64,000 nt of DNA from Verrucomicrobium sp. BvORR106 (GTDB lineage: Bacteria > Verrucomicrobiota > Verrucomicrobiia > Verrucomicrobiales > Verrucomicrobiaceae), in the NCBI RefSeq assembly GCF_000739655.1, contig NZ_BATR01000117.1, positions 1 to 64,000 of the forward strand, given 5' to 3'. A model generated the notes under the pieces. It was not told where the DNA came from and did not search any database. It saw only the letters and a program-made list of their open reading frames with translations. Position numbers and translations under genes: made by a program. Of the stretch, positions 41,171 to 58,931 are shown one piece after another (the stretch's first letter is position 1; each line of letters begins with the position of its first letter).

Positions 41171-41206
41171 TCAGGGAAATGCAGTTACTGCAGCCCTAGC
41201 GCCAGC

Positions 41207-42364: not shown

Positions 42365-42421
42365 GGGTGGGTAACTAGTGTGAGAGAGAGTGAGGCGGGA
42401 GTCTGGCGCGGGGGCGGAGAA

Positions 42422-42452
42422 GTGAAAAGTAAAAAGTGAAAAGTCAAAAGTG
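42422..42452. repeat. 7-bp tandem repeat
   Basis: Four heptamers GTGAAAA, GTAAAAA, GTGAAAA and GTCAAAA plus a partial GTG lie between the divergent oxidoreductase and ABC genes. A hairpin GGTGCC/GGCACC follows, and a partly inverted T-rich copy lies near 42500-42520. Confidence 0.7.
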
Positions 42453-42536
42453 GGGTGCCATTGGCACCGGAGGCGGGTCGCGCTGAACTCTGCGGATTCA
42501 GTTTTTACTTTTCGCCGTTCACTCCTAACTTTCTCG

Positions 42537-43307
42537 ATGCTTTCTCTCCGCGGTCTGACCAAACGCTATGGCGTTCAAACAGCAGTGGACAACCTGTCGC
42601 TCGAAGTGCCAGCGGGGCAGATTGTCGGGTTGCTGGGGCCGAACGGGGCAGGGAAGACCACCACGCTGAAGATGGTCACCGGGTTGCTCAAGCCGGATGA
42701 AGGCACGGCACTGATCGCGGGGCGGGATATCACGCTGGAGCCGGTGGAGGCCAAGCGGGCGCTGGGATTCGTGCCCGACTCGGGAGCGGTGTACGAGTCT
42801 CTCACCGGGATGGAGTATCTGCTGATGGTGGCCTCTCTCTATGGGATCGAGGAAAGCGCCGCCGTGGAACGGGTGGTCCGTTTTATCGAGTACTTCGAGC
42901 TGGGCATGGACACACTGGAGAGAAAGCTGCTGGGGGCCTATTCGAAGGGCATGCGGAGGAAGGTGGTCATCACCGCCGCCCTTTTGCATCAGCCCAAGGT
43001 GGTGTTTCTGGACGAACCGCTGGACGGGCTGGATGCCAATGCCGCAGTGGGGTTCAAGGCCCTGCTGGAGACCCTGGCCCGCGAGGGCAAAACGATCGTG
43101 TACAGCTCCCACATCCTGGATGTAGTGGAGCGCGTGTGCCATCGGGTGGCTATCATTCACCAGGGGCGGCTCCTCGTCGATGGCGCCCCGGAGGATCTGA
43201 TTCGGGAGCACGCTGCGGCCAGCCTGGAGCAACTATTCACCCGGCTCACAGGCTCGCATGACCACGAACAACGGGCCGAATCGTTCGCCCGGTCTCTCCG
43301 GTCATGA
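42537..43307 (+). CDS. ABC transporter ATP-binding protein
   Basis: A 256-residue ATPase of an ABC-2 type exporter. Walker A is GPNGAGKT (residues 34-41), the signature-like motif is YSKGMRRKV in place of the usual LSGGQ, and Walker B is VVFLDEPLDGLD, with the H-loop in YSSHILDVVER. This shape (SKGM signature) is typical of ATPases that pair with ABC-2 permeases for export. It overlaps the permease gene by ATGA. Substrate unknown. The ATG at 42537 starts at the first conserved strand. Confidence 0.93.
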   Translation: MLSLRGLTKRYGVQTAVDNLSLEVPAGQIVGLLGPNGAGKTTTLKMVTGLLKPDEGTALIAGRDITLEPVEAKRALGFVPDSGAVYESLTGMEYLLMVASLYGIEESAAVERVVRFIEYFELGMDTLERKLLGAYSKGMRRKVVITAALLHQPKVVFLDEPLDGLDANAAVGFKALLETLAREGKTIVYSSHILDVVERVCHRVAIIHQGRLLVDGAPEDLIREHAAASLEQLFTRLTGSHDHEQRAESFARSLRS

Positions 43308-44917
43308 AGACTTCTGCGAGCCAGAGCAACGGGAAAGTTCTGCGGCGCCTCTTTTGGACTCTGTTCTTTCGGGGGCGTGCCACCTCCCGAAAGCGCGGTG
43401 AGGAAGGCAAGGTGAACCGGCACAGCATGCTGGGCACGCTGGGGTTCTATCTTCTGGTGGGGTTCGCTCCCTGTCTGGCCATCCAGCGGGTGGATACCCT
43501 GACGTTTTCTGTGATGATGCATGGGGCCACCCTGTTCCTGGTGGTGATGCATCTAGTGGCCACGGCTGGCAGTGTGTTGTTCAACCGGGAGGAGTCGGAG
43601 ATTCTTCTGCATCGTCCCGTGACTGCCAAAGAGCTCCTCCATGCCAAGACGAGTGTGCTGTGCGGGGTGACCGCCATTATGGCCCTCGCGCTGAATCTCC
43701 CAGGCATGGTCGCAGGTCTGTGGCTGCGGGATGCCCACTGGTGGTTTCCTCTAGCTCATCTGGTTTCATTGGGGGGCATGATCGGCTTTTGTGCCGGAGC
43801 GCTGGTGGTGGTGTATCAGGTGTGTTTGAAGTGGTTTGGCCGGGACCGGCTGGATAACATCATGACCACGTTCCAGACGATCCTGACCGTGGTGCTGGTG
43901 ATGGGAAGTCAGTCCTTCCGGCTGCTGGGCCAGGTGAATCTGGAGGAGCTTCGTCACGCCTGGTGGCTGTTGCTGCTGCCTCCTACGTGGTTCGGGGCGC
44001 TGGATGCCGTCCTGGCATCACACCGGCCGGAGGCCTGGATGGTGATCGCCGCTGCGGTGGGGGTGTTCGCGACCTTGATGGTGGCTTGGTTGGGCATGCA
44101 TCGGCTGGCCGCCAGCTATGGGGAAGGGCTCACCTTGCTCAACGAGCAAGCGTCGCCGGAAGTAAAAGCGACAGGGAAGGCCTGGTGGATTCGCCGCCTG
44201 GTCGGCGCTGCTCCGTTGCGTCGTTGGCTGAGTCATCCGGTGGAGCGCAGCAGCTTCATTTTGACCGCGGCCTATATGTTTCGGGACCGGGAAACGAAAT
44301 TGCGGCTCTACCCGGGCATTGCCCAGGTACTGGCATTGCCCCTGGTGTTTCTCCTGGCAGGTCGGGCGGGGCGCGACAGCGGTGTGGATGTGGCTCTGGC
44401 TGGCATTTACATGGGCTGGCTGCCGCTCATGGCCATGCAGATGCTGGCCTACAGTGAGAACTGGCAGGCCGCGGAGCTCTTCCAATCCTCACCGGAAGGG
44501 CGCTGGCAGCCCCTGTTTCATGGGGCCAGGAAGGCCGTCCTTGTCCTTCTGGCGGTGCCACTCATTGTGCTGCTTTTGACCCTCGTCCTCGCCACCCACG
44601 GCATGAGCAAGTGGCTGCTGCTCCTGTTGCCCAATGTGGTGATGCTCCCTGTGTGGTCTCTCGTGCCCGGCCTGATGAATGAGTGGCGGCCGTTCGCTAC
44701 ACCGTATGACGCCAAGGATCAGGCCCGGTGGGGATGTTTGACGATGATGGTGGTCATGGGGGTGTCCTCGGCCGTCGCCATGGGGGGGTGGGGTGCCATG
44801 AAGTTTGGTTTTTTCCCCGTGGCCATTTCGATCCAACTGGTGATCGTGGGGCTGATCTATCTGGTTCTTGCGAGGAGAATTGATGGCTTGAGCAAAAAAA
44901 GGGGCAACCAAGCTTAG
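43304..44917 (+). CDS. ABC exporter permease, multi-pass membrane protein
   Basis: A 537-residue integral membrane protein with about ten hydrophobic helices, for example near residues 48-60, 70-95, 125-145 and 155-180, and several in the last 150 residues. It should be the transmembrane half of the exporter whose ATPase is encoded immediately upstream; the start overlaps the ATPase stop as ATGA. Its layout resembles the putative ABC exporter family PF16949; the 574-residue protein at 59.7 kb looks like a distant relative without an adjacent ATPase. What it exports cannot be read from the sequence. The chemosensory cluster begins 61 bp downstream on the same strand. Confidence 0.85.
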   Translation: MKTSASQSNGKVLRRLFWTLFFRGRATSRKRGEEGKVNRHSMLGTLGFYLLVGFAPCLAIQRVDTLTFSVMMHGATLFLVVMHLVATAGSVLFNREESEILLHRPVTAKELLHAKTSVLCGVTAIMALALNLPGMVAGLWLRDAHWWFPLAHLVSLGGMIGFCAGALVVVYQVCLKWFGRDRLDNIMTTFQTILTVVLVMGSQSFRLLGQVNLEELRHAWWLLLLPPTWFGALDAVLASHRPEAWMVIAAAVGVFATLMVAWLGMHRLAASYGEGLTLLNEQASPEVKATGKAWWIRRLVGAAPLRRWLSHPVERSSFILTAAYMFRDRETKLRLYPGIAQVLALPLVFLLAGRAGRDSGVDVALAGIYMGWLPLMAMQMLAYSENWQAAELFQSSPEGRWQPLFHGARKAVLVLLAVPLIVLLLTLVLATHGMSKWLLLLLPNVVMLPVWSLVPGLMNEWRPFATPYDAKDQARWGCLTMMVVMGVSSAVAMGGWGAMKFGFFPVAISIQLVIVGLIYLVLARRIDGLSKKRGNQA

Positions 44918-44978
44918 GGCGGCATCCGTTGAAGGGCGTGTTGATCAGCACCAGCCCATCGTTTCCCGAGTTGCTCTC

Positions 44979-45494
44979 ATGCCTTCCGCTCTGACTTTTT
45001 CCATCTGCGGTGTTCGGCTGGGGATCGAAGTGCACCATGTCCGGGAGGTGTTGCCCTGCGTGCGCCTGGTACACCCGCCCGAGACGCCGCCCGTGCTCCG
45101 GGGATTCCTCAACCTGAGGGGCGAGATGGTGCCCGTGCTGCGGCTGGAGAGTGTGCTCCAGCTGGCCATGCAAGACGCGGATTGGAATCCTGAAGAGCAG
45201 CTGCAGTCCCGCCTCGTCGTCGCCCGCCTGGGAGATCTGAATGTGGCCTGGCTGGCTGATGAGGGCGTGGAACTGCTGCGGTATGATGCCGTTCAGACGG
45301 TGAGGCTGCCCGTGGATCACGTTCTCAACAACTGTGCGGACCGCGTGGTCGCGCGTCCAGCTCCTGAGATGTCCATCGTGCTGCTCAGTCCATCCAAGGT
45401 GTTGTTGGAAGGGGAAAGCATCCGGCTCCGGCAGTTGGCGGCGCGTGAGAAGCTGCGTCATGATGCTTTTGAATTGGCGGAACAGGAGGCATGA
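44979..45494 (+). CDS. CheW-type coupling protein (WspB-like)
   Basis: A 171-residue CheW protein, first gene of a chemosensory cluster. CheW couples receptors to the CheA kinase; the CheW fold is visible in LTFSICGVRLGIEVHHVREVL, GFLNLRGEMVPVL and the beta strands after it. It overlaps the following cheR by ATGA (stop at 45492-45494). In Pseudomonas Wsp systems the same order CheW-CheR-CheW is seen as wspB-C-D. The gene is 61 bp after an ABC exporter and may share its promoter. Confidence 0.88.
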   Translation: MPSALTFSICGVRLGIEVHHVREVLPCVRLVHPPETPPVLRGFLNLRGEMVPVLRLESVLQLAMQDADWNPEEQLQSRLVVARLGDLNVAWLADEGVELLRYDAVQTVRLPVDHVLNNCADRVVARPAPEMSIVLLSPSKVLLEGESIRLRQLAAREKLRHDAFELAEQEA

Positions 45495-46957
45495 GCACAG
45501 TGTCGTCCATGGCGGATCCCAGGGTGCACGCCCTGCTCAGAGATCCGGATTTCCAAAAACTGAAGGAGTGGATCATCGCCACCACGGGCCTGTCGTACTA
45601 TGCCGACAAGGACCGCGATCTCGCCACAGCCGTGGGCCGCTGTCAGCAGCTGGAGGGACGCCAGGCTGGGGAGATCCTCGAAATGTTAACCCGTGGGCTC
45701 GACCCGGCGCTGGACCGCCTGGTGGAAGAGTTGACGATTGGCGAGACGTTCTTCTTCCGGCATCTGGAGATGTTCCACGCACTGAGGGATCACGTGTTGC
45801 CGGATCTCATCCATCGGCGCGCGGCGCTCAAGTCCCTCCGCATTTGGAGCGCAGGCTGTTCTGTGGGGGCAGAGCCCTACTCGCTGGCGATCCTCCTGCA
45901 TGATCTACTGGGAGATGCGGCACAAGATTGGTCCTTCGAGATTGTTGCGACGGATATCAACCGCCGTTTCCTCGCACTCGCCCGGGCGGGAGTGTATGAC
46001 AACTGGGCGCTCCGCGGCATGGAGCCGGAATTGCTCAAGCGCACCTTTCACCAGTTGGGAGCCCGCTGGCGCATCAACGATCTTTATCGCGAGGCGGTGA
46101 CCTTCCGTCACCACAATCTGGTCAAAGACAAGTTTCCTTCCATTGAGCATGAGTTGAGCGGGCTGGATCTCATCATCTGCCGGAACGTTATCATCTACTT
46201 CGATGTCCCGACGAACCGGCGTCTTGCGGATCAGTTCTACCGCAGCTTGGTGCCGGGCGGATGGCTGGCCGTGGGGCATGCCGAGCCGCATACGGAGATC
46301 TTTCGCGCGTTCCAGACCGTCAATGCGCCGGGCGCTGTGTTGTATCAGCGGGCCTCGGAAGGAGAAGGAAAGAATGCTCCCTCCCCGGGGCTTGCAGTCC
46401 CTGTGTCCCGGAGTGTGGCAGCACCGGCGCTCCCAGCGGCCCCTACGGTCCAGACTGTCCGGACGAGCGCAGCCGCACCCCAGTGGGTTCCGGTGGTGCG
46501 TGAGGCGTCGCCCGCTGTGCCAGAACCAGTCCGCCCGGCGGAGCGGGAGGCAAACAGAGAGACGGCGGTTGAGGAAATAACCACATCGGCCGACAAGGGC
46601 GATCTGACTTCCGCACGGAAGCTGGCGGAGGCGCTGATTGCGGCCCAGCCTCTGCATGAAGGGGCGCATTTCCACCTGGGGCTGGTGTTGTTCCAGCAGG
46701 GTGAGTGGGAGAAGGCCCGGATGGCGCTGAAGCGTAGCCTGTACCTGCGTCGTGACCTGGCTGTCGCCCACTACTATCTGGGACTGGTGCAGCTGGGGTT
46801 GGGAGAGCCAGCCGCCCGGAGTTTTCAGAATGCCCGCCGGTTGATCATCCGTCTGGAAGGCGGGGCTGTCCTGCCCTGGGGCGATGGATTGACCGCTGGT
46901 GAATTGCGCGCCCTCTTGCAACCCTATCATGGAGCCACCACGACACATGAAGCCTGA
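45491..46957 (+). CDS. CheR-type methyltransferase with TPR domain (WspC-like)
   Basis: A 488-residue protein: an N-terminal helical CheR region (DPDFQKLKEWIIATTGLSYY), an S-adenosylmethionine-binding methyltransferase domain with WSAGCSVGAEPYSLAILL and DLIICRNVIIYF, then a Pro/Ala-rich linker (about 295-350) and TPR-like helices near the C-terminus (EGAHFHLGLVLFQQGEWEKARMAL, AVAHYYLGLVQLG). It should methylate glutamates of the cluster's receptor, setting adaptation. Tail TPRs are typical of WspC. It overlaps the next cheW by 11 bp. Confidence 0.92.
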   Translation: MSTVSSMADPRVHALLRDPDFQKLKEWIIATTGLSYYADKDRDLATAVGRCQQLEGRQAGEILEMLTRGLDPALDRLVEELTIGETFFFRHLEMFHALRDHVLPDLIHRRAALKSLRIWSAGCSVGAEPYSLAILLHDLLGDAAQDWSFEIVATDINRRFLALARAGVYDNWALRGMEPELLKRTFHQLGARWRINDLYREAVTFRHHNLVKDKFPSIEHELSGLDLIICRNVIIYFDVPTNRRLADQFYRSLVPGGWLAVGHAEPHTEIFRAFQTVNAPGAVLYQRASEGEGKNAPSPGLAVPVSRSVAAPALPAAPTVQTVRTSAAAPQWVPVVREASPAVPEPVRPAEREANRETAVEEITTSADKGDLTSARKLAEALIAAQPLHEGAHFHLGLVLFQQGEWEKARMALKRSLYLRRDLAVAHYYLGLVQLGLGEPAARSFQNARRLIIRLEGGAVLPWGDGLTAGELRALLQPYHGATTTHEA

Positions 46958-47522
46958 GACAGAACGAATCAACTGGGAGCAGGTGAAGCTGCGCATGAAA
47001 GATGCGGAGGCGACCCTGCAACGGGCGTTTCAACCCGGGGCAGAGGAGCGGGATGCCGTGTTACTGCGCCGTGCTGCCGCTCTGGCGGAGATGAAAGGGG
47101 CCGGGCGATTGGACGATGACCGAGCTCAGCAAGTGTTGCTCTTGCGGGTGGGGGAGTCCGTGATCGGGTTGGATGCAGCCCAAGTCGCACAGATTGTAAG
47201 CTTCCAGCAGTGGGCGGCTGTCCCAGATGCCCATGAGGCGCTGCTGGGAGTCGTGAATGTCCGGAGTGAATTGGTCGGTCTCTGCAGCCCCTATCCATAT
47301 CTCAAAACGACAGGTGGAGATGTCTCAGGATTCGTGCGAGGGGCAGTGCTGCGTCATTCCACGCTTCGCCTGGCACTGGGCTGTGACGAGGTCCTTGGGT
47401 TTGTGCATCTGGCACCTGAAGCAATCAAAGAAAACCACGTATTTGAGGCGGCAGGAAGGCTGGGGGTCCTTCTGGACGCGAATGTTATTCTTGAACCCTT
47501 TCACAGCACCATTTCCGCTTAG
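46947..47522 (+). CDS. CheW-type coupling protein (WspD-like)
   Basis: A 191-residue second CheW in the cluster, with a charged N-terminal helix of about 60 residues before the CheW beta barrel (VLLLRVGESVIGLDAAQVAQIV, LLGVVNVRSELVGL). Such N-terminally extended CheW proteins match WspD. The ATG at 46947 is chosen because it starts the extension just after the cheR-coding overlap; other ATGs at 46929 and 46899 would lie deeper inside cheR. It should form receptor-kinase arrays with the other CheW, the MCP and CheA. Confidence 0.85.
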   Translation: MKPETERINWEQVKLRMKDAEATLQRAFQPGAEERDAVLLRRAAALAEMKGAGRLDDDRAQQVLLLRVGESVIGLDAAQVAQIVSFQQWAAVPDAHEALLGVVNVRSELVGLCSPYPYLKTTGGDVSGFVRGAVLRHSTLRLALGCDEVLGFVHLAPEAIKENHVFEAAGRLGVLLDANVILEPFHSTISA

Positions 47523-47549
47523 GACGCATCCATTTTTCCATCCATTCCA

Positions 47550-49178
47550 TTGTACATGAATTCTTCTCCCAACGTCTGGCGTGATCTCAAGGTCGGCACC
47601 AAGCTCACCATCATCCCGCTGTTCTTCATGGTGGCCCTGTCCACCATCCTCTACTTTACAGTCAGCACGCTCGACAGCCAGCAGAGCAAGTTCCTCGTCC
47701 TTGAACTGGTGGGACGTCAGCGCATGCTGCAGCAGCAGCACTTCTCCACGGCGCTGCTCCTCATGGAGAAGCGGGTCGCACGGGAAAAGCTGGATTACGT
47801 GAGGAAGGTGTGGGTGAACACCCAGGAGGGATTGTTGAACGGTGGGGAGGTGATCGAGCGCATGAACCGGCCTGAAATGGTCCGGGTGCCAGCTGCACCT
47901 GAAGGACCTGTCCGTGACAACATGCTGAAGCAGGCGCAGCTCATCACGGTGTCCATCGATGATACCGACCGGCTGGTGGCCATGGAAAAAACCTCGCCTG
48001 ACTTCGCACCGCTCCTGACAAGCCTGCTGCAGCGGGAGTCGGAGATCCAGGACCTCGGCATCGTGATCAACAAAGGGTACACTCAGCTCCTGCAGGAGCA
48101 GTCCCGGGAACTGGTGACCAAGGAAGTGCTCATCACCTTGCTCGTCGGCACCCTGGGCTTCCTCATCAGTTGGCTGGTGGCCAGAAGCATCACCGGGCCG
48201 CTTCAGCGTCTGGTTGCCCTCGCAGACAATGTTTCACGGGGCAATCTACGCACGGAAAAGGCCGCCATCGCCAGCCGCAATGAGCTCGGGCTGCTGGGTG
48301 ATGCTTTTGACAACATGGTGGACAACCTCAAAGACTTGAGCGGACAGATTCTCGGGGTTACGGGAAACATCAATTCCGCCGCGGCAGAGATCCTGGCGTC
48401 CACCCAGCAGCAGGCGTCGAGCACCAAGGAGCAGGCGGCCACGGTGCAGGAGGTTTCCGCCACGATGCAGGAAATCACGCAGTCCGGTGCGGAGATCGCA
48501 GACAAGGCCAAGCAGGTGGCGGCCAATGCCGAGGCCACCTCCGCGGCGAGTCAGTCCGGGGTGGGGGCTGTGCAGGCCACCACCCGGCTCATGGAAGGCA
48601 TTCGCCAGCAGGTGGAGGATGTGGCCGTGAAGATCGTGGGGTTGAGTGAGCGGACGCAGGCCATTGGCGACATCATCAGTACGGTGAACGAGATCTCGGA
48701 CCAGTCCAACCTGCTGGCGCTCAATGCCAGCATCGAAGCGGCCAGTGCCGGCGATCACGGGGCCCGGTTTGCCGTGGTGGCGGGCGAGATGCGCAACCTG
48801 GCCCAGCGGGCCAAGGAAAGCACCGTGCATGTGGGCGGTATTCTTGGTGAGATCCAGCGTGGGATCAACAGCACGGTCATGCTCACGGAGGAGGCCGTGA
48901 AGCGCTCAGATTCCGGAAAGCAGCAGGCCCAGGTCACAGAGCAGACCATCCATCAAATGACGCACACGACGGTAGAAAGCGTGCACGCCTTCCAGCAGAT
49001 CATCGGTGCCACCAGTCAACAGCAGATTGGCTTTGACCAGGTGACCCAGGGGATGCGTGACATTCGTCAGGCGGCCGAGCAGACCGCAATCGGGACGGCT
49101 CAGCTGGAGAAGGCCCTGGGTAATCTCAACGAACTCAGCATCCAGCTCCGCATGGCCGTGGGCAAGTATCAGCTGTAG
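47550..49178 (+). CDS. Methyl-accepting chemotaxis protein (WspA-like)
   Basis: A 542-residue receptor with an N-terminal transmembrane helix (about 20-42), an extracytoplasmic four-helix-bundle-like region of about 145 residues, a second membrane helix (about 190-210), a HAMP domain and the cytoplasmic signalling domain with the hairpin tip QSNLLALNASIEAASAGDHG. This simple layout is that of WspA, a surface or stress sensor. An alternative ATG at 47556 would shorten it by two residues. It lies between the WspD-like and CheA-like genes instead of first, as wspA is in Pseudomonas. A hairpin lies downstream. Confidence 0.93.
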   Translation: MYMNSSPNVWRDLKVGTKLTIIPLFFMVALSTILYFTVSTLDSQQSKFLVLELVGRQRMLQQQHFSTALLLMEKRVAREKLDYVRKVWVNTQEGLLNGGEVIERMNRPEMVRVPAAPEGPVRDNMLKQAQLITVSIDDTDRLVAMEKTSPDFAPLLTSLLQRESEIQDLGIVINKGYTQLLQEQSRELVTKEVLITLLVGTLGFLISWLVARSITGPLQRLVALADNVSRGNLRTEKAAIASRNELGLLGDAFDNMVDNLKDLSGQILGVTGNINSAAAEILASTQQQASSTKEQAATVQEVSATMQEITQSGAEIADKAKQVAANAEATSAASQSGVGAVQATTRLMEGIRQQVEDVAVKIVGLSERTQAIGDIISTVNEISDQSNLLALNASIEAASAGDHGARFAVVAGEMRNLAQRAKESTVHVGGILGEIQRGINSTVMLTEEAVKRSDSGKQQAQVTEQTIHQMTHTTVESVHAFQQIIGATSQQQIGFDQVTQGMRDIRQAAEQTAIGTAQLEKALGNLNELSIQLRMAVGKYQL

Positions 49179-49204
49179 GCCCGGCCAGTCTGCCGCACCC
49201 AGTT

Positions 49205-49228
49205 CCTCCCGGTCTATGCCACGGGAGG
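49205..49228 (+). promoter_or_regulatory. Intercistronic hairpin between MCP and cheA
   Basis: CCTCCCG and CGGGAGG pair around a 10-nt loop in the 102-bp gap after the receptor gene. Without a T tract it may stabilise the upstream mRNA and keep receptor above kinase. Confidence 0.35.
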
Positions 49229-49280
49229 GAGCATTCCCCTGACATCCCTTCCATCCAGTTCCTAAATCCCCAATCCCTTC

Positions 49281-51419
49281 GTGTCCTCCTCGTCAGACAT
49301 TCAACAGCGTGTGCTTGCGGCCTTCCGCCTGGAATACCGTGAGCAGATCGTTGCGGTCCGTGCACTGGTGGAGGCCTGGCCGCTGACGGAGGGGCCGGTG
49401 TTTGATGAAGCCTTTCGCATGGCTCACAGCATGAAAGGCGGGGCCCGTGTCTGTGATCTGCTGGAGGTGGAGCATCTGGCCCATGACCTGGAGAGTCTGC
49501 TTTCAGAGATCGCCAGAGGGCGGGTGCCGGCAGATGCTGCGGCGAAGGACCGGATGATCAGGCTCGTGGATGAGGTGGATGATCTGATGGGGGCGGAAGG
49601 GGGCTCGGAGACCAACTTGGTGGACCAGACGTCCGTGACACCATCCGCAATGCTGGAGGAGCAGGTGCCTGAAGGGGTGTTGTACCTTGAACCGGAGGCT
49701 GGAAGCAGGGCTCCCTCAGCGAAGAAACCTCTGGCGTCTGGAGGGGCCGGACCTGACAGCCTGCGGATTCACGCCGGGCATTTGGAAAGGTTGTTGCAGT
49801 CGAGTGGACAGCTGGTGGCTGAAGCCTCGCGTCAAGAGGCCTTGGGACGGGAGCTGGAGGAGTTGTTTGAGCAGACCGAAGCCTTGAGACAATCCAGTGA
49901 TCGTGCCATGGCGGGTTCCACCGAGTTGCATGCGGGACTGGTGGCGCTGAGCAAGCAACTGCAGCGTGTACGCTTGCAGCAGCAGCAGGCGGGTTGGGCT
50001 CTGCGTACGTTGGGAGAGCGTCAGCTGGAGGAGGTGCGGCGCATTGGCATGGTCCCCATCAACAGCGTCTTTGAAGGGTTTCCCAAAATGATGCGCGATC
50101 TGGCGGCGGAGACCGGGAAGAAGGTTGAGTTCACCATCGATGGTGGTGAACTACAGGCAGACCGCGCGGTGCTGCAATCTCTCAAGGACCCTGTGATGCA
50201 TGCATTGCGCAATGCCATGGCGCACGGCATCGAATCCCCCTCGCGACGTCGTGCCGCGGGCAAACCTGAGACAGGAATGGTCCGTTTGGACATTGAGGTG
50301 ATTGGCCAGGTGCTTCGATTGTCAGTTTCGGATGACGGGCAGGGGGTGGACATCCCGTCTGTGCGGGCCCAGGCGCTGCGCAATCGGCTGGTCACTCCTG
50401 AGGTGGCGGAGAATATGGATGACGCCCAGTGGCTGGATTTCCTCTTTGAGCCGCGTTTTTCGACCACGGCCGAAGTGACGCGTGTCTCCGGACGCGGCGT
50501 GGGACTGTCGGTGGTGAAGGATCGTGCCACCCAGTTGCAGGGGACCGCCCGCATGCAGCAGAGTCCGGGGCGCGGCTGCCAGTTGATTCTGGAGGTGCCG
50601 GTGAGCGTGTCCACCCATCGTCTTCTGCTGGTGCGCACCGCTGGGCGTACCTTCGCACTGGGCATGCGCGGGCTCGCGTCTCTGCAGCGCGTCAGGGAGG
50701 TGCACACCGTGGAAGGGCGTTCCGTGATCATGCATGAGGGGCGTCCGGTCCCTCTTGTGACCCTGGGTCCTGCTTGTGGTCTGCCGCCCAGTCTCGTCCG
50801 GCATGAAGATGGCCATCTGCTCGTCGCCGTGCTGAAAGGGGACCGCCCTCTGGCCCTCAATGTCGAGGAGTTCGTTGGTGAGACGAGTGCCCTCATCAAG
50901 GCCTTGCCGCATCCCGCCTCATTGTCACCGCACTTTTCTGGAGCCATTCTTCTGGAGGGTGGGGAGGTGGCGCTGGTCATTAATCTGCCTGGCCTGATGC
51001 AGCGCTTCTTGGGATCAACCCTCCGCGAGGTGAAGCCCGTGTCGATGGTCAAGAAGAAGCCGGTGGTGCTCGTAGTGGACGACTCATTCACCGCCCGCAC
51101 GCTTCAAAAATCCATTCTGGAAGCTGCAGGCTATGCGGTGCGGGTGGCCGTGAACGGCAAGGCGGCTTATGACCTGCTCAGAACAGAGCCGGTGGATGCA
51201 GTGGTATCGGATGTGCAGATGCCGGAGATGGACGGCTTCCAGTTGCTCTCTGCCATGAAGAACCATGCCCGCCTGTCGGAGCTGCCGGTGGTGCTGGTCA
51301 CCTCCTTGAGCAGCCGGGAGGACCAGGAACGCGGCCTGGCCTTGGGTGCAGATGCTTACATCGTGAAGGAGCGCTTCGATCATCGTGAGCTCCTCGATAC
51401 TGTGCGACAGCTGGTCTGA
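49281..51419 (+). CDS. CheA-type hybrid histidine kinase with receiver (WspE-like)
   Basis: A 712-residue kinase, start GTG. The N-terminal HPt domain has the phospho-accepting His49 in FRMAHSMKGGAR; the GHKL ATPase has HALRNAMAHGIE, SDDGQGVD and GRGVGLSVV; a CheW-like regulatory domain follows; the C-terminus is a receiver with Asp644 in VVSDVQMPEMDG. CheA with a fused receiver is WspE-type. It should autophosphorylate on receptor signal and pass phosphate to the receivers of CheB and of the terminal hybrid kinase. No in-frame ATG fits the domain start, so GTG is likely. Confidence 0.93.
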   Translation: MSSSSDIQQRVLAAFRLEYREQIVAVRALVEAWPLTEGPVFDEAFRMAHSMKGGARVCDLLEVEHLAHDLESLLSEIARGRVPADAAAKDRMIRLVDEVDDLMGAEGGSETNLVDQTSVTPSAMLEEQVPEGVLYLEPEAGSRAPSAKKPLASGGAGPDSLRIHAGHLERLLQSSGQLVAEASRQEALGRELEELFEQTEALRQSSDRAMAGSTELHAGLVALSKQLQRVRLQQQQAGWALRTLGERQLEEVRRIGMVPINSVFEGFPKMMRDLAAETGKKVEFTIDGGELQADRAVLQSLKDPVMHALRNAMAHGIESPSRRRAAGKPETGMVRLDIEVIGQVLRLSVSDDGQGVDIPSVRAQALRNRLVTPEVAENMDDAQWLDFLFEPRFSTTAEVTRVSGRGVGLSVVKDRATQLQGTARMQQSPGRGCQLILEVPVSVSTHRLLLVRTAGRTFALGMRGLASLQRVREVHTVEGRSVIMHEGRPVPLVTLGPACGLPPSLVRHEDGHLLVAVLKGDRPLALNVEEFVGETSALIKALPHPASLSPHFSGAILLEGGEVALVINLPGLMQRFLGSTLREVKPVSMVKKKPVVLVVDDSFTARTLQKSILEAAGYAVRVAVNGKAAYDLLRTEPVDAVVSDVQMPEMDGFQLLSAMKNHARLSELPVVLVTSLSSREDQERGLALGADAYIVKERFDHRELLDTVRQLV

Positions 51420-51470
51420 CCCTCCCTTGACCGCCTGCCCTTCCTTTCAACTTCCCAACCCCTTCGCGCA

Positions 51471-52553
51471 TTGACGAAAAAAACCACAGTGATGATTGTC
51501 GAGGATTCCCCGGTGATCAGCATGTTTCTGGAACACATCATCAACCAGGATCCGCGGTTGCAGGTGGTGTCGTCCGTCAGGAGCGGGGAGGAGGCACTGG
51601 CGGTGCTGGAGCATCTGCGTCCGGACGTGATCTCGCTGGACATCCGGCTGCCGGGCATGAACGGCCTGGAGGTGACTCGGCGTATCATGTCGGAGTATCC
51701 CACTCCCATTGTGGTTGTTTCCTCCAACGTGGCGGATGAGGAGCTCAACATCTCCATGAATGCCCTCCGGATCGGAGCGCTGTCGGTGGTGCAGAAGCCG
51801 GTGGGGATGAGTCATGACGACTATGCGGAGCTGGCGGCGGCGCTCTGCACCAAGCTCTACATCATGAGCCAGGTGAGGGTGATCCGGCAGCGTTACCGTG
51901 TGACGTGGCCGGGCATGCCGGAGACTTCCGCCGGTGCCAGGGTGCCAGTGACCCAGGCCGGGCGCTGGCGGCCCACGGTCATTGGCATGGTGGCCTCCAC
52001 CGGGGGGCCCAGTGCGCTGGTCCGGGTTCTAGGAGATCTCTCGCCCTCGGTCACGCAGCCCATCGTGGTGGTGCAGCACATCACACCGGGATTTGTGCGG
52101 GGGTTCGTCCACTGGCTCAATGATGTGCTGCCCGACCGGGAGGTGCTGGAAGGGGTGGCGCAGATGCCGCTGGAAGAGGGAGGGGTCTATGTGGCCCCGG
52201 CAGACCGTCATGCCATCTGTGTGGCGGGCATGCGCCTGGGCCTGCTGGACACGCCTGCGGTGTGTGCGCAGAAGCCTTCCGGGACGGTCCTGTTCCGCTC
52301 CATGAGCCAGGTACACGGGGCCAGGGCGCTGGGTGTCTTGCTCACGGGCATGGGGGAAGACGGTGCCGAGGGACTGAAGGAGATGTGCGACTCCGGAGGG
52401 CTCACCTTTGCCGAGCACGAGTCCAGCGCCGTGGTGTATGGCATGCCCGGTGCGGCGGTGCGTCTGGGGGCGGCCCGTGAGGTCTTGCCCGTCTCGGAGA
52501 TTGGTCCGCGGCTCAACGTCGTCTGCCAGAGCGGGGAGGTGACCCGTGGCTGA
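51471..52553 (+). CDS. CheB-type methylesterase (WspF-like)
   Basis: A 360-residue response regulator/methylesterase. The receiver has Asp57 in SLDIRLPGMNG and an EDS acidic pair at 11-13; the catalytic domain has the nucleophile Ser176 in ASTGGPSALV, His in VQHITPGF and Asp in GMGEDGAEG. It should demethylate the receptor when phosphorylated. The start is a TTG that places the first receiver strand correctly; a later ATG at 51492 would cut into that strand. It overlaps the next gene by 8 bp, so translation is coupled. Confidence 0.92.
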   Translation: MTKKTTVMIVEDSPVISMFLEHIINQDPRLQVVSSVRSGEEALAVLEHLRPDVISLDIRLPGMNGLEVTRRIMSEYPTPIVVVSSNVADEELNISMNALRIGALSVVQKPVGMSHDDYAELAAALCTKLYIMSQVRVIRQRYRVTWPGMPETSAGARVPVTQAGRWRPTVIGMVASTGGPSALVRVLGDLSPSVTQPIVVVQHITPGFVRGFVHWLNDVLPDREVLEGVAQMPLEEGGVYVAPADRHAICVAGMRLGLLDTPAVCAQKPSGTVLFRSMSQVHGARALGVLLTGMGEDGAEGLKEMCDSGGLTFAEHESSAVVYGMPGAAVRLGAAREVLPVSEIGPRLNVVCQSGEVTRG

Positions 52554-54636
52554 GCCGCGCAGTCATATCGTCCTGGTGGAAGATTCCGCCAGTCAGGCGC
52601 TCAAGCTGATCTCCCTGCTGGAAGCAGAAGGCTGGCGGGTCACCTGGGTGTCCACGGCAGAGGAGGCCTTTGTCACCCTGCGTGACAAGCGGCCAGATCT
52701 GGTGCTGCTAGACTACTACCTGCCGGGCATGCGCGGGGATGAGGTCTGCCGCCGCATCAGAATGCATGTGGACAGCCGCAGCCTGCCCATCGTGATCCTC
52801 ACCTCCCAGGAGGACAAGGAACTGCAGGGGCTGGACAGCGGGGCCGATGACTTCATTCTGAAGTCGGGCAATCCGGAGTATTTGCTGCTGAGGGTGCGCA
52901 CGCTCTTGCAGAAGTCGCGGCCGGAGGGGCGCATCTTTACCGGCGGTGACAACAGTTTCCGGACCGCCCGCCTCCTGGCCATCGATGACAGTCCGACCTT
53001 CCTCGAGCACTTGAGGGGAGAGTTGGAGGGTGAGGGGTACAAGGTGGACGTCGCCCTGGATCCCCTGAAAAGTCTGGAGCTGGTCAGGAAGAACAAGTAT
53101 GACGGCGTCATCATCGACCTGCTCATGCCGAAGATGGATGGGTTCGAGGTATGTCGAAGGATAAATGAACTGCGTCATCAGCTGGAGGTGCCGCTCATCA
53201 CGATTGTCCTCACTGGGGCAGAATCACGGGACAATCTCTTCCGTGCCCTGGAGGCTGGAGCAGATGATTTCGTGGGGAAGTCTGGGGACTACGCGATTCT
53301 GAAGGGGCGCATCCGGGCCCTGCTGAGGCGGAAGTTCTACGAGGAGGAGAATTCTCGCATTCTGCATGAATTCCGGGCCAGGGAGCTGGAGGCGGCGCGC
53401 GAACGGGCGGCCAAGGAGGCGGCTGAAGCCCGCGCTGCGCTGGTGGAAGAACTTCAGCAGCGGGAGGAGGAGCTGCGTAACTCCAGAGAGGAACTCAAGC
53501 GTGCCAACGAGGCGAAGGATCAGTTCCTGGCGGTGCTCAGCCATGAGCTGCGCACGCCCCTGAGCCCGGTGCTGGCCGTGGTGGCAGAGTGGTGCAGTCG
53601 CCCCCAAGTGCCGGAGGAGCTGCGCCGGGACCTTGAGATGGTCAAGCGTAACATTGATCTGGAGGCCCGGCTCATTGACGATCTCCTGGATCTGACCCGG
53701 ATCATCAAAGGCAAGATGGAGATGCGGGATGATGAGGTGGATCTACGTGATCTCCTGAACCATGCGGTGGAAATCTGCCGTGAATCCCGCACGGGGCCAG
53801 ACCGCATCGTTACCCATGACACTGCCACGCAGACCCGCGTGCAAGGTGATGCCATGCGCCTCACTCAAGTCCTGTGGAACCTGCTGCGCAATGCGGTGAA
53901 ATTCACCCCCGAGGAAGGCGTTGTACAGGTGAACCTGAAGCCGGGGCAGGCGGGACGGGATGGAGGAAATACGGTCGTGATCGAGGTCTCGGACAATGGC
54001 ATTGGCATCGCCGCCGAGGACATTGGCAGGATCTTCGATGCCTTCGACCAGGGCAACCGGACGGTCACGCGGCAGTTTGGAGGGCTGGGGCTGGGCCTTG
54101 CGATCAGCAAGGCCATCGTGGATCTGCACCATGGCACACTCACGGCGGCGAGTGCGGGGCGGAACAAGGGGGCCACCTTCACTCTCACGCTGCCCGTCTT
54201 TCAGGGGCAGTCAGTGGCGGATTTGGTGCTTCCTGTCTGCCAGCCGTCTTCGGTGCCAACCGTCCCTGCTGTGAAACCCGCCGGGTTACGTATTTTGCTT
54301 GTCGAGGATCATGAGGACACCCGCGAGGTGATGCGTCAGCTTCTGCAGCGTCGCGGGCACACGGTGCTCGTGGCCCGGAGTGTGGCCACCGCCTTGGCGG
54401 TGGTGGAGGGGGGCGAAGCGGTGGATCTGCTGATCAGCGATCTGGGGCTTCCCGATGGGAGTGGATTGGACCTCATGAAATCCATCCGCGCCCGGCTGCC
54501 ATTGCGCGCCATAGCCCTGAGTGGCTATGGCATGGAGGACGATCATCGCCGATCTCGTGAAGCCGGATTTCAGGAGCACCTGGTGAAGCCGGTAAGTTTC
54601 CCTGATCTGCTGAGGGCGATTGAGCGTCTGCGATAG
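52546..54636 (+). CDS. Hybrid signalling protein: REC-REC-histidine kinase-REC
   Basis: A 696-residue protein in the position where Wsp clusters carry the diguanylate cyclase WspR. Two receivers come first (phospho-Asp56 in LLDYYLPGMRG and Asp191 in IDLLMPKMDG), then a coiled-coil stretch (about 280-320), a HisKA domain with His333 in FLAVLSHELRTP, a GHKL ATPase (NAVKFTPEEG, DNGIGIAAEDIG, GLGLGLAISKAI) and a third receiver (Asp632 in SDLGLPDGSG). No GGDEF, HAMP or membrane segment. It likely takes phosphate from CheA and passes it on, perhaps to an HPt or regulator elsewhere. The start is GTG inside cheB. Confidence 0.92.
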   Translation: MAEPRSHIVLVEDSASQALKLISLLEAEGWRVTWVSTAEEAFVTLRDKRPDLVLLDYYLPGMRGDEVCRRIRMHVDSRSLPIVILTSQEDKELQGLDSGADDFILKSGNPEYLLLRVRTLLQKSRPEGRIFTGGDNSFRTARLLAIDDSPTFLEHLRGELEGEGYKVDVALDPLKSLELVRKNKYDGVIIDLLMPKMDGFEVCRRINELRHQLEVPLITIVLTGAESRDNLFRALEAGADDFVGKSGDYAILKGRIRALLRRKFYEEENSRILHEFRARELEAARERAAKEAAEARAALVEELQQREEELRNSREELKRANEAKDQFLAVLSHELRTPLSPVLAVVAEWCSRPQVPEELRRDLEMVKRNIDLEARLIDDLLDLTRIIKGKMEMRDDEVDLRDLLNHAVEICRESRTGPDRIVTHDTATQTRVQGDAMRLTQVLWNLLRNAVKFTPEEGVVQVNLKPGQAGRDGGNTVVIEVSDNGIGIAAEDIGRIFDAFDQGNRTVTRQFGGLGLGLAISKAIVDLHHGTLTAASAGRNKGATFTLTLPVFQGQSVADLVLPVCQPSSVPTVPAVKPAGLRILLVEDHEDTREVMRQLLQRRGHTVLVARSVATALAVVEGGEAVDLLISDLGLPDGSGLDLMKSIRARLPLRAIALSGYGMEDDHRRSREAGFQEHLVKPVSFPDLLRAIERLR

Positions 54637-54659
54637 CGAGCTGGACGGGCCCCAAAAAA

Positions 54660-54683
54660 GCGGCCGGGCATTAGCCCGGCCGC
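54660..54683 (-). terminator. Intrinsic terminator of the peroxiredoxin gene
   Basis: GCGGCCGGGC and GCCCGGCCGC form a perfect 10-bp stem with a 4-nt loop; six T follow on the minus strand. It also lies just past the hybrid kinase stop and may end both converging transcripts. Confidence 0.88.
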
Positions 54684-54720
54684 GGAATACAAAAAGCTAT
54701 GACGGGAACCGTCGTGCGCC

Positions 54721-55200
54721 TTAGGAGAGAGAGCCCAGGGCAGCCTTCACGGCTTCGAAGTTGGGCAGTTCTTTGGGGGAGGGAGTCTGCTCCGAGTACT
54801 GGATCACGCCGTCTTTGTCGATGACGAAGGCGGAGCGGGCCGAGGTGTCACCGATGCCAGCCAGACCGGGGAAGAGCACGTCGTAAGCCTTGGTCGTTTC
54901 CTTGTTGAGGTCGCTGACCAAGGTGATGCCGATCTTCTCCTTCTGGGCCCAGGCTTCCTGAGCGAAGGGGCTGTCCACGCTCACGGCGATGACGTCAGCG
55001 TTGAGATCGCCATAACCACCAAGGCCGGCGGTGATGTCACACAGTTCCTGGGTGCACACGCCCGTGAAAGCGAGAGGGAAGAAGAGCAACACGGTGTTCT
55101 TGCTGCCAAAGTTGGCGCTCAAGGTCACATCTTTGAGGCCATCGGCGTTCTTGCTCTTGAGGGTGAAATCCGGGGCTTTGGTACCGACTGCGAGAGGCAT
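54721..55200 (-). CDS. Peroxiredoxin (AhpE/BCP-like)
   Basis: A 159-residue thiol peroxidase. The peroxidatic Cys49 is in FFPLAFTGVCTQELC (the PxxxTxxC motif); a second Cys54 in the same helix could resolve the disulfide, as in atypical 2-Cys or AhpE/BCP-type enzymes. No signal peptide. The start at 55200 begins the conserved strand; the frame is open further upstream without conserved residues. The leader is purely pyrimidine-rich without a Shine-Dalgarno. Reduces peroxides or hydroperoxides; the electron donor is unknown. Divergent from the nitroreductase gene. Confidence 0.92.
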   Translation of the reverse strand: MPLAVGTKAPDFTLKSKNADGLKDVTLSANFGSKNTVLLFFPLAFTGVCTQELCDITAGLGGYGDLNADVIAVSVDSPFAQEAWAQKEKIGITLVSDLNKETTKAYDVLFPGLAGIGDTSARSAFVIDKDGVIQYSEQTPSPKELPNFEAVKAALGSLS

Positions 55201-55372
55201 GAGAAGAGAGAGTTGGGATTCGGGTTTGTGATCGTGACGCCAAGCGTCCGAACGGGCCGATTGTAGGCGGTACGGTGACGGGGTCAAACAAATCAACTCG
55301 CCTGCTCGCGCCTGGACTTGATTCTGTCGCATCGCGAGGGGAACGTCGTACGTTTTCTTCCTGACCCCATCT

Positions 55373-55993
55373 ATGTCCGAAGCCGCGCCTACCCCTCTTC
55401 AGAGCATCACCGACCACATCCGGCACCGTCGTTCCGTCAAACCGGCGGACATGGATTCAAGCCGGCAGGTGGATAGGGCACTCCTGGAGGCGTTGATGGA
55501 GAATGCAAATCAGGCTCCCACTCACGGCATGACGGAGCCGTGGAGGTTTCACGTGCTGCAAGGAGCGGCCCGGGCTGAACTGGCTGCGACGATGCAGGCG
55601 GTTTACCAGGAGATCACACCTGCCTCAGAGTTTCGTGAGGACAAGTATCGGAAGATGACGGAGAGCGCCCGACTGGCACCCGTCATCATTGCGATCGTCA
55701 TGGCCCGGCGCGGCGGGGCAAAGATCCCGGAACTGGAGGAAATCGAGGCGGTGGCCTGTGCCGTACAGAATCTGCATCTGAGCGCGAGTGCCGCAGGGCT
55801 GGCGGGCTACTGGTCCACCCCGGCTTTGGTGTACGACCGCAAGTTTGCTGATTGGCTACAGTTGGGGACTGAAGATCGTTGCCTGGGCTTGTTTTACCTG
55901 GGCTGGCCCAAGCCAGGCTTTGTGTGGCCGGAGGGGCGTCGCAGCCCGGTGCAGGGCAAGATCACCTGGCATGGAGAGGCAGCCGGGGAATGA
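55373..55993 (+). CDS. Nitroreductase-family flavoprotein
   Basis: A 206-residue FMN-binding enzyme. The nitroreductase fold shows in IRHRRSVKPADMD near the N-terminus, ENANQAPTHGMTEPWRFHVL (FMN and dimer region), VACAVQNLHLSASAAGLAGYW and the C-terminal GLFYLGWPKP. It resembles the YdjA-like branch of short nitroreductases. Reduces nitro compounds, quinones or similar with NAD(P)H. It overlaps the next gene by ATGA. Confidence 0.88.
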   Translation: MSEAAPTPLQSITDHIRHRRSVKPADMDSSRQVDRALLEALMENANQAPTHGMTEPWRFHVLQGAARAELAATMQAVYQEITPASEFREDKYRKMTESARLAPVIIAIVMARRGGAKIPELEEIEAVACAVQNLHLSASAAGLAGYWSTPALVYDRKFADWLQLGTEDRCLGLFYLGWPKPGFVWPEGRRSPVQGKITWHGEAAGE

Positions 55994-56523
55994 GCTGGTG
56001 GCATGATATGGTGCAGTGGTTCCAGAGCCTGGAGATCGGGCACTGGATGGTGTGGTGCCTGACGGTCCTGCTGATGTTTGTCGGCGTGCTGGGCACCGTG
56101 GTCCCTATGCTCCCCGGTCCGGTGCTGCTCTTTGTGGCAGGCGGGCTTCACACCCTGCTGATGCCGGATCACGGCATGAGCCTGTGGGGACTCGGCGTCA
56201 TGGCGCTCCTGCTGGCAGCCACGTTCGCAGTGGATTTTCTCAGTGGAGCCGTGGGGTCCAAGTGGTTTGGCGGCAGCCGCTGGGGCTTCTGGGGTGTCTT
56301 GGTGGGCGGGATTGTGGGACTGTTCTTTGGCCCATTGGGATTGATCTTCGGTCCTCTCATTGGCGGCTTTGCTTTTGAGGTCCTTTTTGCGAAAAAGAAG
56401 ATCAACCCTGCCATGAAAGCGACCTGGGGTACCGTGGTGGGGACGACCATGGGCATGGTGCTCAAGCTGGGTCTGAGCATCGCCATGGTGGTGTGCTTTC
56501 TCGTGGACGTGTTCTGGTGGTGA
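55990..56523 (+). CDS. DUF456 family membrane protein
   Basis: A 177-residue protein with about four or five membrane helices, rich in Gly near the centre (GGIVGLFFGPLGLIFGPLIGGF), matching the DUF456 (YqgC-like) family. The ATG at 55990 forms an ATGA overlap with the nitroreductase stop, which fixes the start; an upstream ATG at 55879 reads inside that gene. A strong hairpin overlaps the stop codon. Function of the family is not established; the pair with a nitroreductase suggests joint expression only. Confidence 0.85.
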   Translation: MSWWHDMVQWFQSLEIGHWMVWCLTVLLMFVGVLGTVVPMLPGPVLLFVAGGLHTLLMPDHGMSLWGLGVMALLLAATFAVDFLSGAVGSKWFGGSRWGFWGVLVGGIVGLFFGPLGLIFGPLIGGFAFEVLFAKKKINPAMKATWGTVVGTTMGMVLKLGLSIAMVVCFLVDVFWW

Positions 56524-56547
56524 CGACCGGCATGGAATGCCGGTCGT
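56523..56547 (+). terminator. Terminator after the DUF456 gene
   Basis: A perfect 11-bp stem ACGACCGGCAT/ATGCCGGTCGT with a 3-nt loop begins in the last base of the stop codon and is followed by TTTG. It may also serve the converging gatA transcript. Confidence 0.75.
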
Positions 56548-56585
56548 TTGACTCCTGAACCGCGTGAGATGACGGCCGAAGCCTC

Positions 56586-58034
56586 CTACCGGGGCTTTTT
56601 CAAATGCCAGGAGGTGGACTGCTCGTAGGCATGGGCCGCGCGAAGCAGGGTGACTTCATCCAGCGCACGTCCCACCATCTGCAGACCCACTGGCAGCGTG
56701 GTGCCGCCATCTTCCACGAACCCACATGGCACGCTGATGCCGGGGAGCCCCGCCAGGTTGGCCGGAATGGTGAATAGGTCCGCCAGATAGACGGAAAGGG
56801 GATCATCGCTGTGGGCCCCCAGCTTGAAGGGGAGCTCGGGCGTTGTGGGAGAGAGCACGATATCCACCTTCTTGAATGCCTCGTCAAAGTCCTTACGAAT
56901 GAGGGTCCGGGCCTTCTGGGCTTTCACGTAGTAGGCGTCATAGTAGCCCGAACTCAGCACATAAGTGCCGAGCAGGATGCGTCGCTTCACTTCAGGCCCG
57001 AAGCCTTCGGCGCGGGTCGTGAGATAGTGATCCAGAACGTCTTTGGTGTTCTCGGCGCGGTGGCCGTACCGGACGCCGTCAAAGCGTGAGAGGTTCGTGG
57101 AGGCCTCAGCTGGTGCGATGACGTAATAGGTGGCAATACCCACGTCGGTGTGCGGGAGGCTGATCTCCTCCACAATGCCTCCCAGACCCTGAATGTGGGT
57201 GATGGCAGCATCAACGGCACTGCGAATGCGAGCATCCACTCCATCCACAAGGTACTCCTTGGGCAGGCCAAAGCGCAGCCCCTTGATATCCTGGCCGAGG
57301 CCAGATGTGAAGTCGGGCACTGCTGCGTCCAGTGAGGTACTGTCGCGTCCGTCTTTGCCGCAGAGATGGTTTAAGACCAGCGCGGCGTCTTCGACGGTCT
57401 TCGTGATGGGGCCGATCTGATCAAGGGATGAAGCGAAGGCCACCAGACCGAAGCGGGAGACCCGCCCGTACGTGGGCTTGATGCCAACGCACCCGCAGAA
57501 GGCGGAGGGTTGCCGGATCGAGCCGCCCGTATCGGATCCCAGGGCGGCAATGGCGATATCACCGCCTACTGCGGAAGCTGAGCCGCCGCTGGACCCGCCA
57601 GGGACGCGTTCAGTGTCCCACGGGTTCCGGCTCGCGAAGAAGGCGGAGTTCTCTGTGGAGGAGCCCATGGCGAACTCATCCATGTTCAGCCTTCCCAGGC
57701 TCAGGGCACCGGCTGCGTGCAACTGGTTTACGCAAGTGGCGTTGTACGGCGCGGTGTAGTTTTCAGCGAGGAACTTGGAGGCGCAGGTGCAGGGGGCACC
57801 TTTGACATTGATGTTGTCCTTGATGCCAATGGGGATGCCTCCCAGAGGCTTGCTGATGTCTGCCTTTGCGGCATCCGCCAGCGCACGCTCTGCATCGACC
57901 GAGAGGTAGGCCTTGAGGCTGGGATCCTGCTTCTCAATGGAGGTCAGCACATCCTTGACGATGTCCGTCGGAGTGATCTCCTTGCTGAGAAGTTGCTTGC
58001 GGAGGGAGGCGATGGATTGAGCGGCGAGGGACAC
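56586..58034 (-). CDS. gatA: Asp-tRNA(Asn)/Glu-tRNA(Gln) amidotransferase subunit A
   Basis: A 482-residue amidase-signature enzyme that releases ammonia from glutamine for GatB to amidate mischarged Glu-tRNA(Gln) or Asp-tRNA(Asn). The Ser-cisSer-Lys triad is intact: Lys72 in GIPIGIKDNI, Ser148 in PGGSSGG and nucleophile Ser172 in SDTGGSIRQP. Start is GTG, with a C/T-rich leader. It is 52 bp after gatC in the same direction; gatB is not in the window. Normal length (about 485). Confidence 0.96.
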   Translation of the reverse strand: MSLAAQSIASLRKQLLSKEITPTDIVKDVLTSIEKQDPSLKAYLSVDAERALADAAKADISKPLGGIPIGIKDNINVKGAPCTCASKFLAENYTAPYNATCVNQLHAAGALSLGRLNMDEFAMGSSTENSAFFASRNPWDTERVPGGSSGGSASAVGGDIAIAALGSDTGGSIRQPSAFCGCVGIKPTYGRVSRFGLVAFASSLDQIGPITKTVEDAALVLNHLCGKDGRDSTSLDAAVPDFTSGLGQDIKGLRFGLPKEYLVDGVDARIRSAVDAAITHIQGLGGIVEEISLPHTDVGIATYYVIAPAEASTNLSRFDGVRYGHRAENTKDVLDHYLTTRAEGFGPEVKRRILLGTYVLSSGYYDAYYVKAQKARTLIRKDFDEAFKKVDIVLSPTTPELPFKLGAHSDDPLSVYLADLFTIPANLAGLPGISVPCGFVEDGGTTLPVGLQMVGRALDEVTLLRAAHAYEQSTSWHLKKPR

Positions 58035-58086
58035 GGGAGAAAGACGAGATGCGGAGTGCGAGATATGGCGGGCGTGAGAGGGGTGG

Positions 58087-58371
58087 CTATTCCACCACGC
58101 GGGAGATCAGGAATTGCCCGGCGGTCTTACGGGGCGCATTGGAGAGGGCCTCGTCACGATCCAGGCCTTCCACGGACACATCTTCACGCCAGACGTCATA
58201 GATCGGCATGGCGTGGGCGGTCAATTCAACACCCGACAGATCATGGCCTTCCAAAGTCTCCATATAGTCCAGCACCTTGGCGAGCTGAGCCTCATACTTT
58301 ACCGCCTCCTGTTCGGTCAGCTTGAGGCGGGCGAGCTTAGCGGTGTGTTGAATGTCGATGTGGTGGGCCAT
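58087..58371 (-). CDS. gatC: Asp-tRNA(Asn)/Glu-tRNA(Gln) amidotransferase subunit C
   Basis: The 94-residue small subunit that stabilises the GatA-GatB complex. The N-terminal helix (IDIQHTAKLARLKLTEQEA) and the conserved segment LSNAPRKTAGQFLISRVVE are typical. It lies upstream of gatA in the usual order. A terminator-like hairpin about 100 bp upstream shows that it begins a new transcription unit. Confidence 0.94.
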   Translation of the reverse strand: MAHHIDIQHTAKLARLKLTEQEAVKYEAQLAKVLDYMETLEGHDLSGVELTAHAMPIYDVWREDVSVEGLDRDEALSNAPRKTAGQFLISRVVE

Positions 58372-58473
58372 GCGCCCCTAATGGAAAGGCGGAGGCGGCA
58401 AAGTCAAGCCTCTGGGCGGTGCCGGGAAGGAAAATGGGGGCCTGCGCTCCAAGCCAAATCGGGGCACAAAAAA

Positions 58474-58499: not shown

Positions 58500-58530
58500 A
58501 AATGGATCGATCCTCGAAGGCTGAGGATGG

Positions 58531-58914: not shown

Positions 58915-58931
58915 GGGAGTGCGGCTCGGGG

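Follow-up and report, generated by a model that had tools for sequence, protein, structure and literature searches.

Which protein receives the phosphate from CheA in a chemosensory operon whose parts list is that of the Wsp system, but whose last gene encodes a hybrid histidine kinase and no GGDEF domain? The question is raised by a 64,000-nucleotide stretch of DNA from Verrucomicrobium sp. BvORR106 (hereafter, the window), for which an earlier note, made from the sequence alone, had described a Wsp-like cluster with a kinase in place of WspR. We collected chemosensory clusters across the phylum, from plasmids, and from named genomes, built CheA trees from them, and searched the genome (8.69 Mb, 99.94% complete) with domain profiles.

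Organization and conservation of the operon

Open reading frames and Pfam matches delineate seven same-strand genes (44979-54636, plus strand), in the order CheW, CheR-TPR, CheW, MCP, CheA-REC, CheB, and REC-REC-HisKA-HATPase-REC. The first CheW adaptor (44979..45494, 171 aa; Pfam CheW E 7.8e-16), which heads every orthologous cluster, overlaps by 4 bp the gene for a CheR methyltransferase with C-terminal TPR repeats (45491..46957, 488 aa; Pfam CheR E 5.5e-49 and TPR). The second CheW adaptor (46947..47522, about 191 aa; Pfam CheW E 3.5e-12) has an uncertain start, its open reading frame opening at 46899. It is followed by a chemoreceptor (MCP; 47556..49178, 540 aa) with Pfam HAMP and MCPsignal domains and by CheA-REC (49281..51419), in which Pfam recognizes an Hpt domain (H49), a HATPase kinase core, a CheW-like domain, and a receiver (D644). 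H49 is invariant in 8 homologs, and D600, D601, D644, T674, and K696 are likewise invariant in the CheA alignment. CheB (51471..52553), comprising a receiver and a methylesterase by Pfam, overlaps by 8 bp (52546-52553) the gene for the terminal hybrid kinase (52546..54636, 696 aa), whose architecture, from Pfam and a residue check, is REC1(D56)-REC2(D191)-HisKA(H333)-HATPase-REC3(D632), with these four phosphorylation sites, like H49 of CheA, all intact. A strong terminator-like inverted repeat (54660..54683) with 10 G-C pairs and a T tail on the minus strand sits between the operon and a convergent peroxiredoxin gene. We found no plus-strand promoter-like site inside 44850-54800 and no cheY or further receiver gene in window positions 40000-60000. 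The gene content, order, and domains given in the earlier note hold, as do the 8-bp overlap, the residues that it named (H49 of CheA; D56, D191, and D632 of the kinase), and the lack of a GGDEF domain in the cluster. An ABC transporter ATPase and membrane genes (42534-44914) lie directly upstream on the same strand; we rejected this transporter pair as a part of the system, because its position beside the cluster is conserved only within the genus.

A comparison of synteny, one of the checks proposed with the earlier description, recovered the seven genes, in unchanged order and ending with the kinase, in six relatives (two further members of the genus and four genomes from two other genera of the family), whose flanking genes vary from genus to genus. 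Identity among the hybrid kinases is 92-93% inside the genus and 57-58% between genera. Since the order recurs with differing flanks, the arrangement is not due to chance, and the terminal kinase is a genuine part of the chemosensory system. This CheA is found at an identity of at least 47% in 7 of the 68 genomes of the family. The seven-gene order with a REC-REC-HK output is also seen in Methylobacterium, Microvirga, Magnetospirillum, Roseomonas, and others, as well as in Bryobacterales, and the on-contig part of a cluster from Elusimicrobium fits the same order.

The operon belongs with Che3 and not with Wsp

An identical parts list could mean that the operon is a true Wsp system that has lost WspR, with its CheA continuing to act on a diguanylate cyclase from another locus; that a Wsp system can carry a kinase output is known from WspH of Burkholderia (PMC8552884). 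The CheA phylogeny argues against such a descent. In the more careful of our trees (52 rows), 25 clusters with REC-REC outputs, including the window cluster and Che3 of Rhodospirillum centenum, form one clade (100/100), and ten Wsp-order clusters, among them that of Burkholderia WspH and two with WspR, form a separate one (100/100). The clade uniting the window CheA with CheA3 was recovered in all of 200 bootstrap trees; one cluster with a long branch was left out of the later trees. On the larger tree (97 rows), the difference between the MCP-first and MCP-fourth orders amounts to a single change over 64 rows. Together with the CheA tree, this makes the fourth position of the MCP gene the normal one in this and neighboring ACF branches, not the mark of a rearranged Wsp operon; a transposition of the MCP gene within a Wsp operon is rejected on the same grounds. 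The MCP, CheA, and CheB proteins are closer to those of R. centenum Che3 (40%, 41%, and 47% identity, respectively) than to those of Wsp (27-30%, 30-33%, and 32-38%). A WspE-clade CheA, the MCP-CheW-CheR-CheW-CheA-CheB order, and a REC-GGDEF (WspR) output are all lacking in the window.

The genome searches point the same way. No GGDEF match was found anywhere in the genome, whereas the control for this search gave matches in 8 of 14 genomes; PilZ and FliG matches were likewise absent from the genome. As there is neither GGDEF nor PilZ, we can exclude a c-di-GMP output within the limits of the assembly, and a WspR-type target of CheA encoded elsewhere, the finding that the earlier note had named as fatal to its proposal, does not exist. 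GGDEF is rare in the family, with any match in 9 of 68 genomes, one of which keeps the hybrid-kinase cluster and has two GGDEF genes elsewhere. The Wsp-clade cluster that this genome does possess is at another locus, on contig C186. With all this against it, we regard a true Wsp operon minus WspR as exceedingly improbable.

The lack of FliG implies that there is no flagellar motor. The CheR-TPR protein, the multidomain response regulator, and the absent flagellar link are traits of the ACF class (alternative cellular functions; PMC3447774), and the operon is a non-flagellar, ACF-class chemosensory system. Judged from the trees and identities, it is best regarded as a distant cousin of the Che3/CheS3 system of R. 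centenum and not as a Wsp biofilm system. Hence, three elements of the earlier reading are not supported: the label "Wsp-like," the kinase as a stand-in for WspR (the cluster being a separate lineage), and the MCP as displaced from first place.

A chimeric terminal kinase

The two halves of the terminal kinase have different affinities. Its REC-REC half is 44-53% identical to the post-cheB genes of Magnetospirillum, Acidobacteria, and Elusimicrobia, and its kinase half only 28-35%; identity to unrelated hybrid kinases from its own genome is as high as 40-45% over the kinase part and 37-47% over the HK-REC part. When whole genomes were searched with the window kinase, the only match at E <= 1e-60, in Paramagnetospirillum as in Methylorubrum, was the gene directly after cheB. 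The REC-REC parts form one clade with CheS3 (97/98); in this tree, four Methylobacterium rows tagged "other" are Che3-type genes missed by our neighbor rule, and the resulting change count of 3 is an artifact. In the kinase tree, five other kinases from the genome group with the window kinase (98), and the hypothesis that REC-REC-HK proteins owe their kinase parts to one common origin is rejected (p-AU 5.3e-6). REC1 retains D56, T86, and K106, the set expected of a phosphorylatable receiver in an orthologous REC-REC input.

These comparisons indicate that the terminal kinase is a chimera, in which a CheS3-type REC-REC input, orthologous to that of the post-cheB genes of Alphaproteobacteria, Acidobacteria, and Elusimicrobia, has been fused to a local HK-REC module. 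A broader idea, to which we would give somewhat less than an even chance, is that CheA and REC-REC constitute a portable front end that has been repeatedly joined to whichever kinase the host lineage had available. In Verrucomicrobium, it would have taken over a local hybrid-kinase module that brings a receiver along, so that the array commands a native two-component kinase family with neither CheY nor c-di-GMP.

The sensor domain of the MCP

In an AlphaFold model (pLDDT about 88), the sensor of the MCP (approximately residues 43-180; window 47556-48185) adopts a periplasmic four-helix fold resembling that of PilJ, McpN, and NarQ. The model matches the McpN LBD (6gcv) with a Z score of 16.6 and an rmsd of 2.1 Å over 124/124 residues, and NarQ is matched as well. 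The Pfam PilJ profile gives no match in the window MCP; one ortholog scores above the cut-off and another just below it. Residues G53-R54-Q55-R56 of the sensor are invariant. The N-box reads LELVGRQRMLQQ against the pattern [IVL][ND]xAGxQRML[ST]Q, with the G, the Q-R-M-L, and the final Q fitting and three positions departing from it. Matched by this motif, R56 falls at the position of McpN R61, which contacts nitrate (PMC6381276). As the N-box is conserved only in part, we name nitrate as a lead without claiming it as the ligand; it is possible that the MCP is an anion sensor.

Proposed flow of phosphate

Taking these findings together, we propose, as a fairly likely scheme, that this operon of the Che3/CheS3 lineage conveys a signal from the MCP via H49 of CheA to D56 of REC1, thereby altering activity at H333. 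A periplasmic signal, perhaps an anion, would act at the PilJ-like MCP to change the autophosphorylation of CheA at H49, with CheR and CheB providing adaptation. Phosphorylated CheA would then phosphorylate REC1 of the terminal hybrid kinase, for which the CheA receiver and CheB might be competing acceptors or sinks. The REC1-REC2 pair would serve as a PleD-type regulatory stem, whose state may travel via one continuous helix to the phosphoacceptor helix and raise or lower the activity of H333. Onward signaling from the kinase would use REC3 (D632) of the same protein, an unlinked response regulator, or both.

Several observations bear on individual steps. The REC-REC half aligns with that of PleD (E 1e-32), in which REC1 is phosphorylated and the REC-REC pair controls dimerization. 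One continuous helix, spanning residues 249-350 from REC2 into the phosphoacceptor helix with H333, is predicted by AlphaFold (pLDDT mostly 65-83). Across 36 kinase-fused proteins, the REC1 Asp is intact in 35, and the REC2 Asp is kept in 22 and lost in 14, a contrast inflated by kinship, as the losses lie largely in related Alphaproteobacteria and do not represent many independent events. Such retention of the REC1 Asp alongside frequent loss of the REC2 Asp points to REC1 as the common input. It is not the universal receiver, given that REC1 is degenerate and REC2 intact in Azospirillum, and REC2, which is intact here, could also be a CheA target. Transfer from CheA to REC1 has been shown for the homologous R. 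centenum pair (PMC3868531); for the present organism, the direction and the sign, the parts played by REC2 and REC3, the ligand, and the eventual output are inferred. The CheS3 kinase of R. centenum is inhibited when its REC1 is phosphorylated (PMC3868531), but this sign of regulation belongs to a kinase module different from that in the window. With a HisKA kinase, an intact REC3, and no cheY, unlike CheS3 acting on CheY3, the output step may also differ.

An intact REC3 would also suit a multistep phosphorelay from H333 through REC3 (D632) and an Hpt domain to an output regulator, with CheA merely modulating the kinase or lending its Hpt H49 as an intermediate; indeed, an ortholog from Geminicoccus carries a fused C-terminal Hpt domain, indicating that relay use of the architecture exists. 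However, the only Hpt domains above the cut-off in this genome are those of its three CheAs, a further weak match lying within a larger kinase open reading frame, and CheS3, which lacks a REC3, passes phosphate directly to CheY3 (PMC3868531). We consider such a relay unlikely, and the three-receiver phosphorelay advanced in the earlier note is doubtful on account of the same Hpt census, the search for an orphan Hpt that it proposed having returned no stand-alone domain above the cut-off in the genome. Less probable again is that the kinase is an independent sensor merely cotranscribed with the array, or that it donates phosphate to the CheA receiver or CheB. Its kinase half is of a common local hybrid-kinase type and could have partners of its own; yet the protein has no sensor domain, its input end consists of REC-REC only, and that REC-REC half has been co-inherited with CheA across four phyla, which would make little sense without a link to CheA. 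The array thus probably signals from CheA to the hybrid kinase. That CheA feeds a second histidine kinase and not a diguanylate cyclase, the central point of the earlier note, is the most likely reading given a genome devoid of GGDEF and the CheA3-to-CheS3 REC1 transfer (PMC3868531).

Other chemosensory systems and the diversity of outputs

The cluster on contig C186 (5893-13819, minus strand) has the wsp order MCP-CheW-CheR-CheW-CheA-CheB, with a CheA in the Wsp clade and a lone single-domain CheY-like receiver as its output. Close to it is an open reading frame (4011-5141, minus strand) with a match of about 70 residues to Pfam VRP3 (PF03536; E 2.5e-11). The Wsp system has been described as exclusive to Beta- and Gammaproteobacteria (PMC8552884); contrary to this, we find the Wsp CheA clade also in Verrucomicrobiota and Alphaproteobacteria. 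In a third system (7643-18837 within C118:200000-219999), a gene set for CheW, CheR-TPR, CheW, CheB, and REC-HK faces one for CheA-REC, a REC-SpoIIE phosphatase, and a CHASE8 MCP, adjoining a YfiR-like protein and a TonB-type barrel. Compared with each other, the three systems have three different output types in one genome.

A new survey of the genes after cheB, biased toward matches of the window CheA, gave REC-REC-HK (21), REC-SpoIIE (15), lone REC (14), REC-REC-HK-REC (9), REC-GGDEF (9), REC-HK (6), and others. Within the sampled verrucomicrobial clusters, REC-SpoIIE (PP2C phosphatase) is the commonest post-cheB gene, occurring at 15 loci, which suggests partner switching (sigma factor) as an output of these arrays. 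The output end of chemosensory operons is thus exchangeable, with kinases, PP2C phosphatases (SpoIIE), GGDEF domains, or a lone CheY after cheB, and within the Che3 lineage REC-REC is constant while the kinase is replaced. For the window, a likely misannotation as Wsp or c-di-GMP is corrected, and an uncharacterized verrucomicrobial operon is linked to a pathway with a worked-out phosphate flow, D56 of the window kinase being the residue of note.

Comparison with known systems

The closest characterized relative, R. centenum Che3 (CheA3-CheS3), is an ACF chemosensory pathway controlling the formation of dormant cysts, in which He et al. found that CheA3 phosphorylates REC1 (D54) of CheS3, damping the CheS3 kinase and, through it, CheY3 (PMC3868531). 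The R. centenum cluster that we used agrees residue for residue with the published che3 (CheS3 D54, A191, and H453; CheA3 D663; PMC3868531). It shares with the window the order CheW-CheR-CheW-MCP-CheA-CheB-kinase, the CheA clade (100/100), and a REC-REC input in which the Asp positions correspond (D54 versus D56; A191 versus D191); a receiver gene stands at the upstream end of the R. centenum cluster. CheS3 differs in that it has PAS and an HWE kinase, its REC2 is dead, a C-terminal REC is missing, and cheY3 is linked to it; the window protein has, by Pfam, HisKA, HATPase_c, and REC in place of PAS and HWE, a live REC2, and the added REC3. A linked single-domain counterpart of CheY3 is absent here (40000-60000), as it is from many clusters of the clade. 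Because the clade's kinase halves do not share a single origin, we did not treat PAS and HWE as lineage defining.

Clusters from Methylobacterium, Microvirga, Magnetospirillum, and Bryobacterales have the same seven-gene order and orthologous REC-REC regions (35-53% identity), but their products are mostly REC-REC-HK proteins without REC3, with kinase halves only 24-36% identical to that in the window, and many are followed by a separate REC-HK-REC gene. At ten Azospirillum loci, the order is the same as far as cheB, after which REC-REC and HK-REC are encoded by two genes; this looks like the unfused counterpart of the hybrid kinase with the active receiver switched. The annotation of the post-cheB gene in Azospirillum as a DNA-binding "response regulator transcription factor" is wrong, its sequence being REC-REC. 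In Burkholderia, WspH is likewise a receiver-kinase hybrid replacing WspR (PMC8552884), but with a Wsp-clade CheA, an MCP-first order, a single REC, and its gene upstream of wspA. PleD (REC-REC-GGDEF) has a similar stem and a GGDEF output where the window protein has a kinase. Array-to-kinase wiring is not new as such, having precedents in WspH (PMC8552884), in CheS3 (PMC3868531), and in a survey from 2012, where a kinase module was present in about 40% of the response regulators of cheR-TPR clusters (PMC3447774). New are the verrucomicrobial variant, which combines a HisKA kinase with an intact third receiver and lacks a cheY, and the evidence that the kinase has been exchanged repeatedly while CheA and REC-REC stayed constant.
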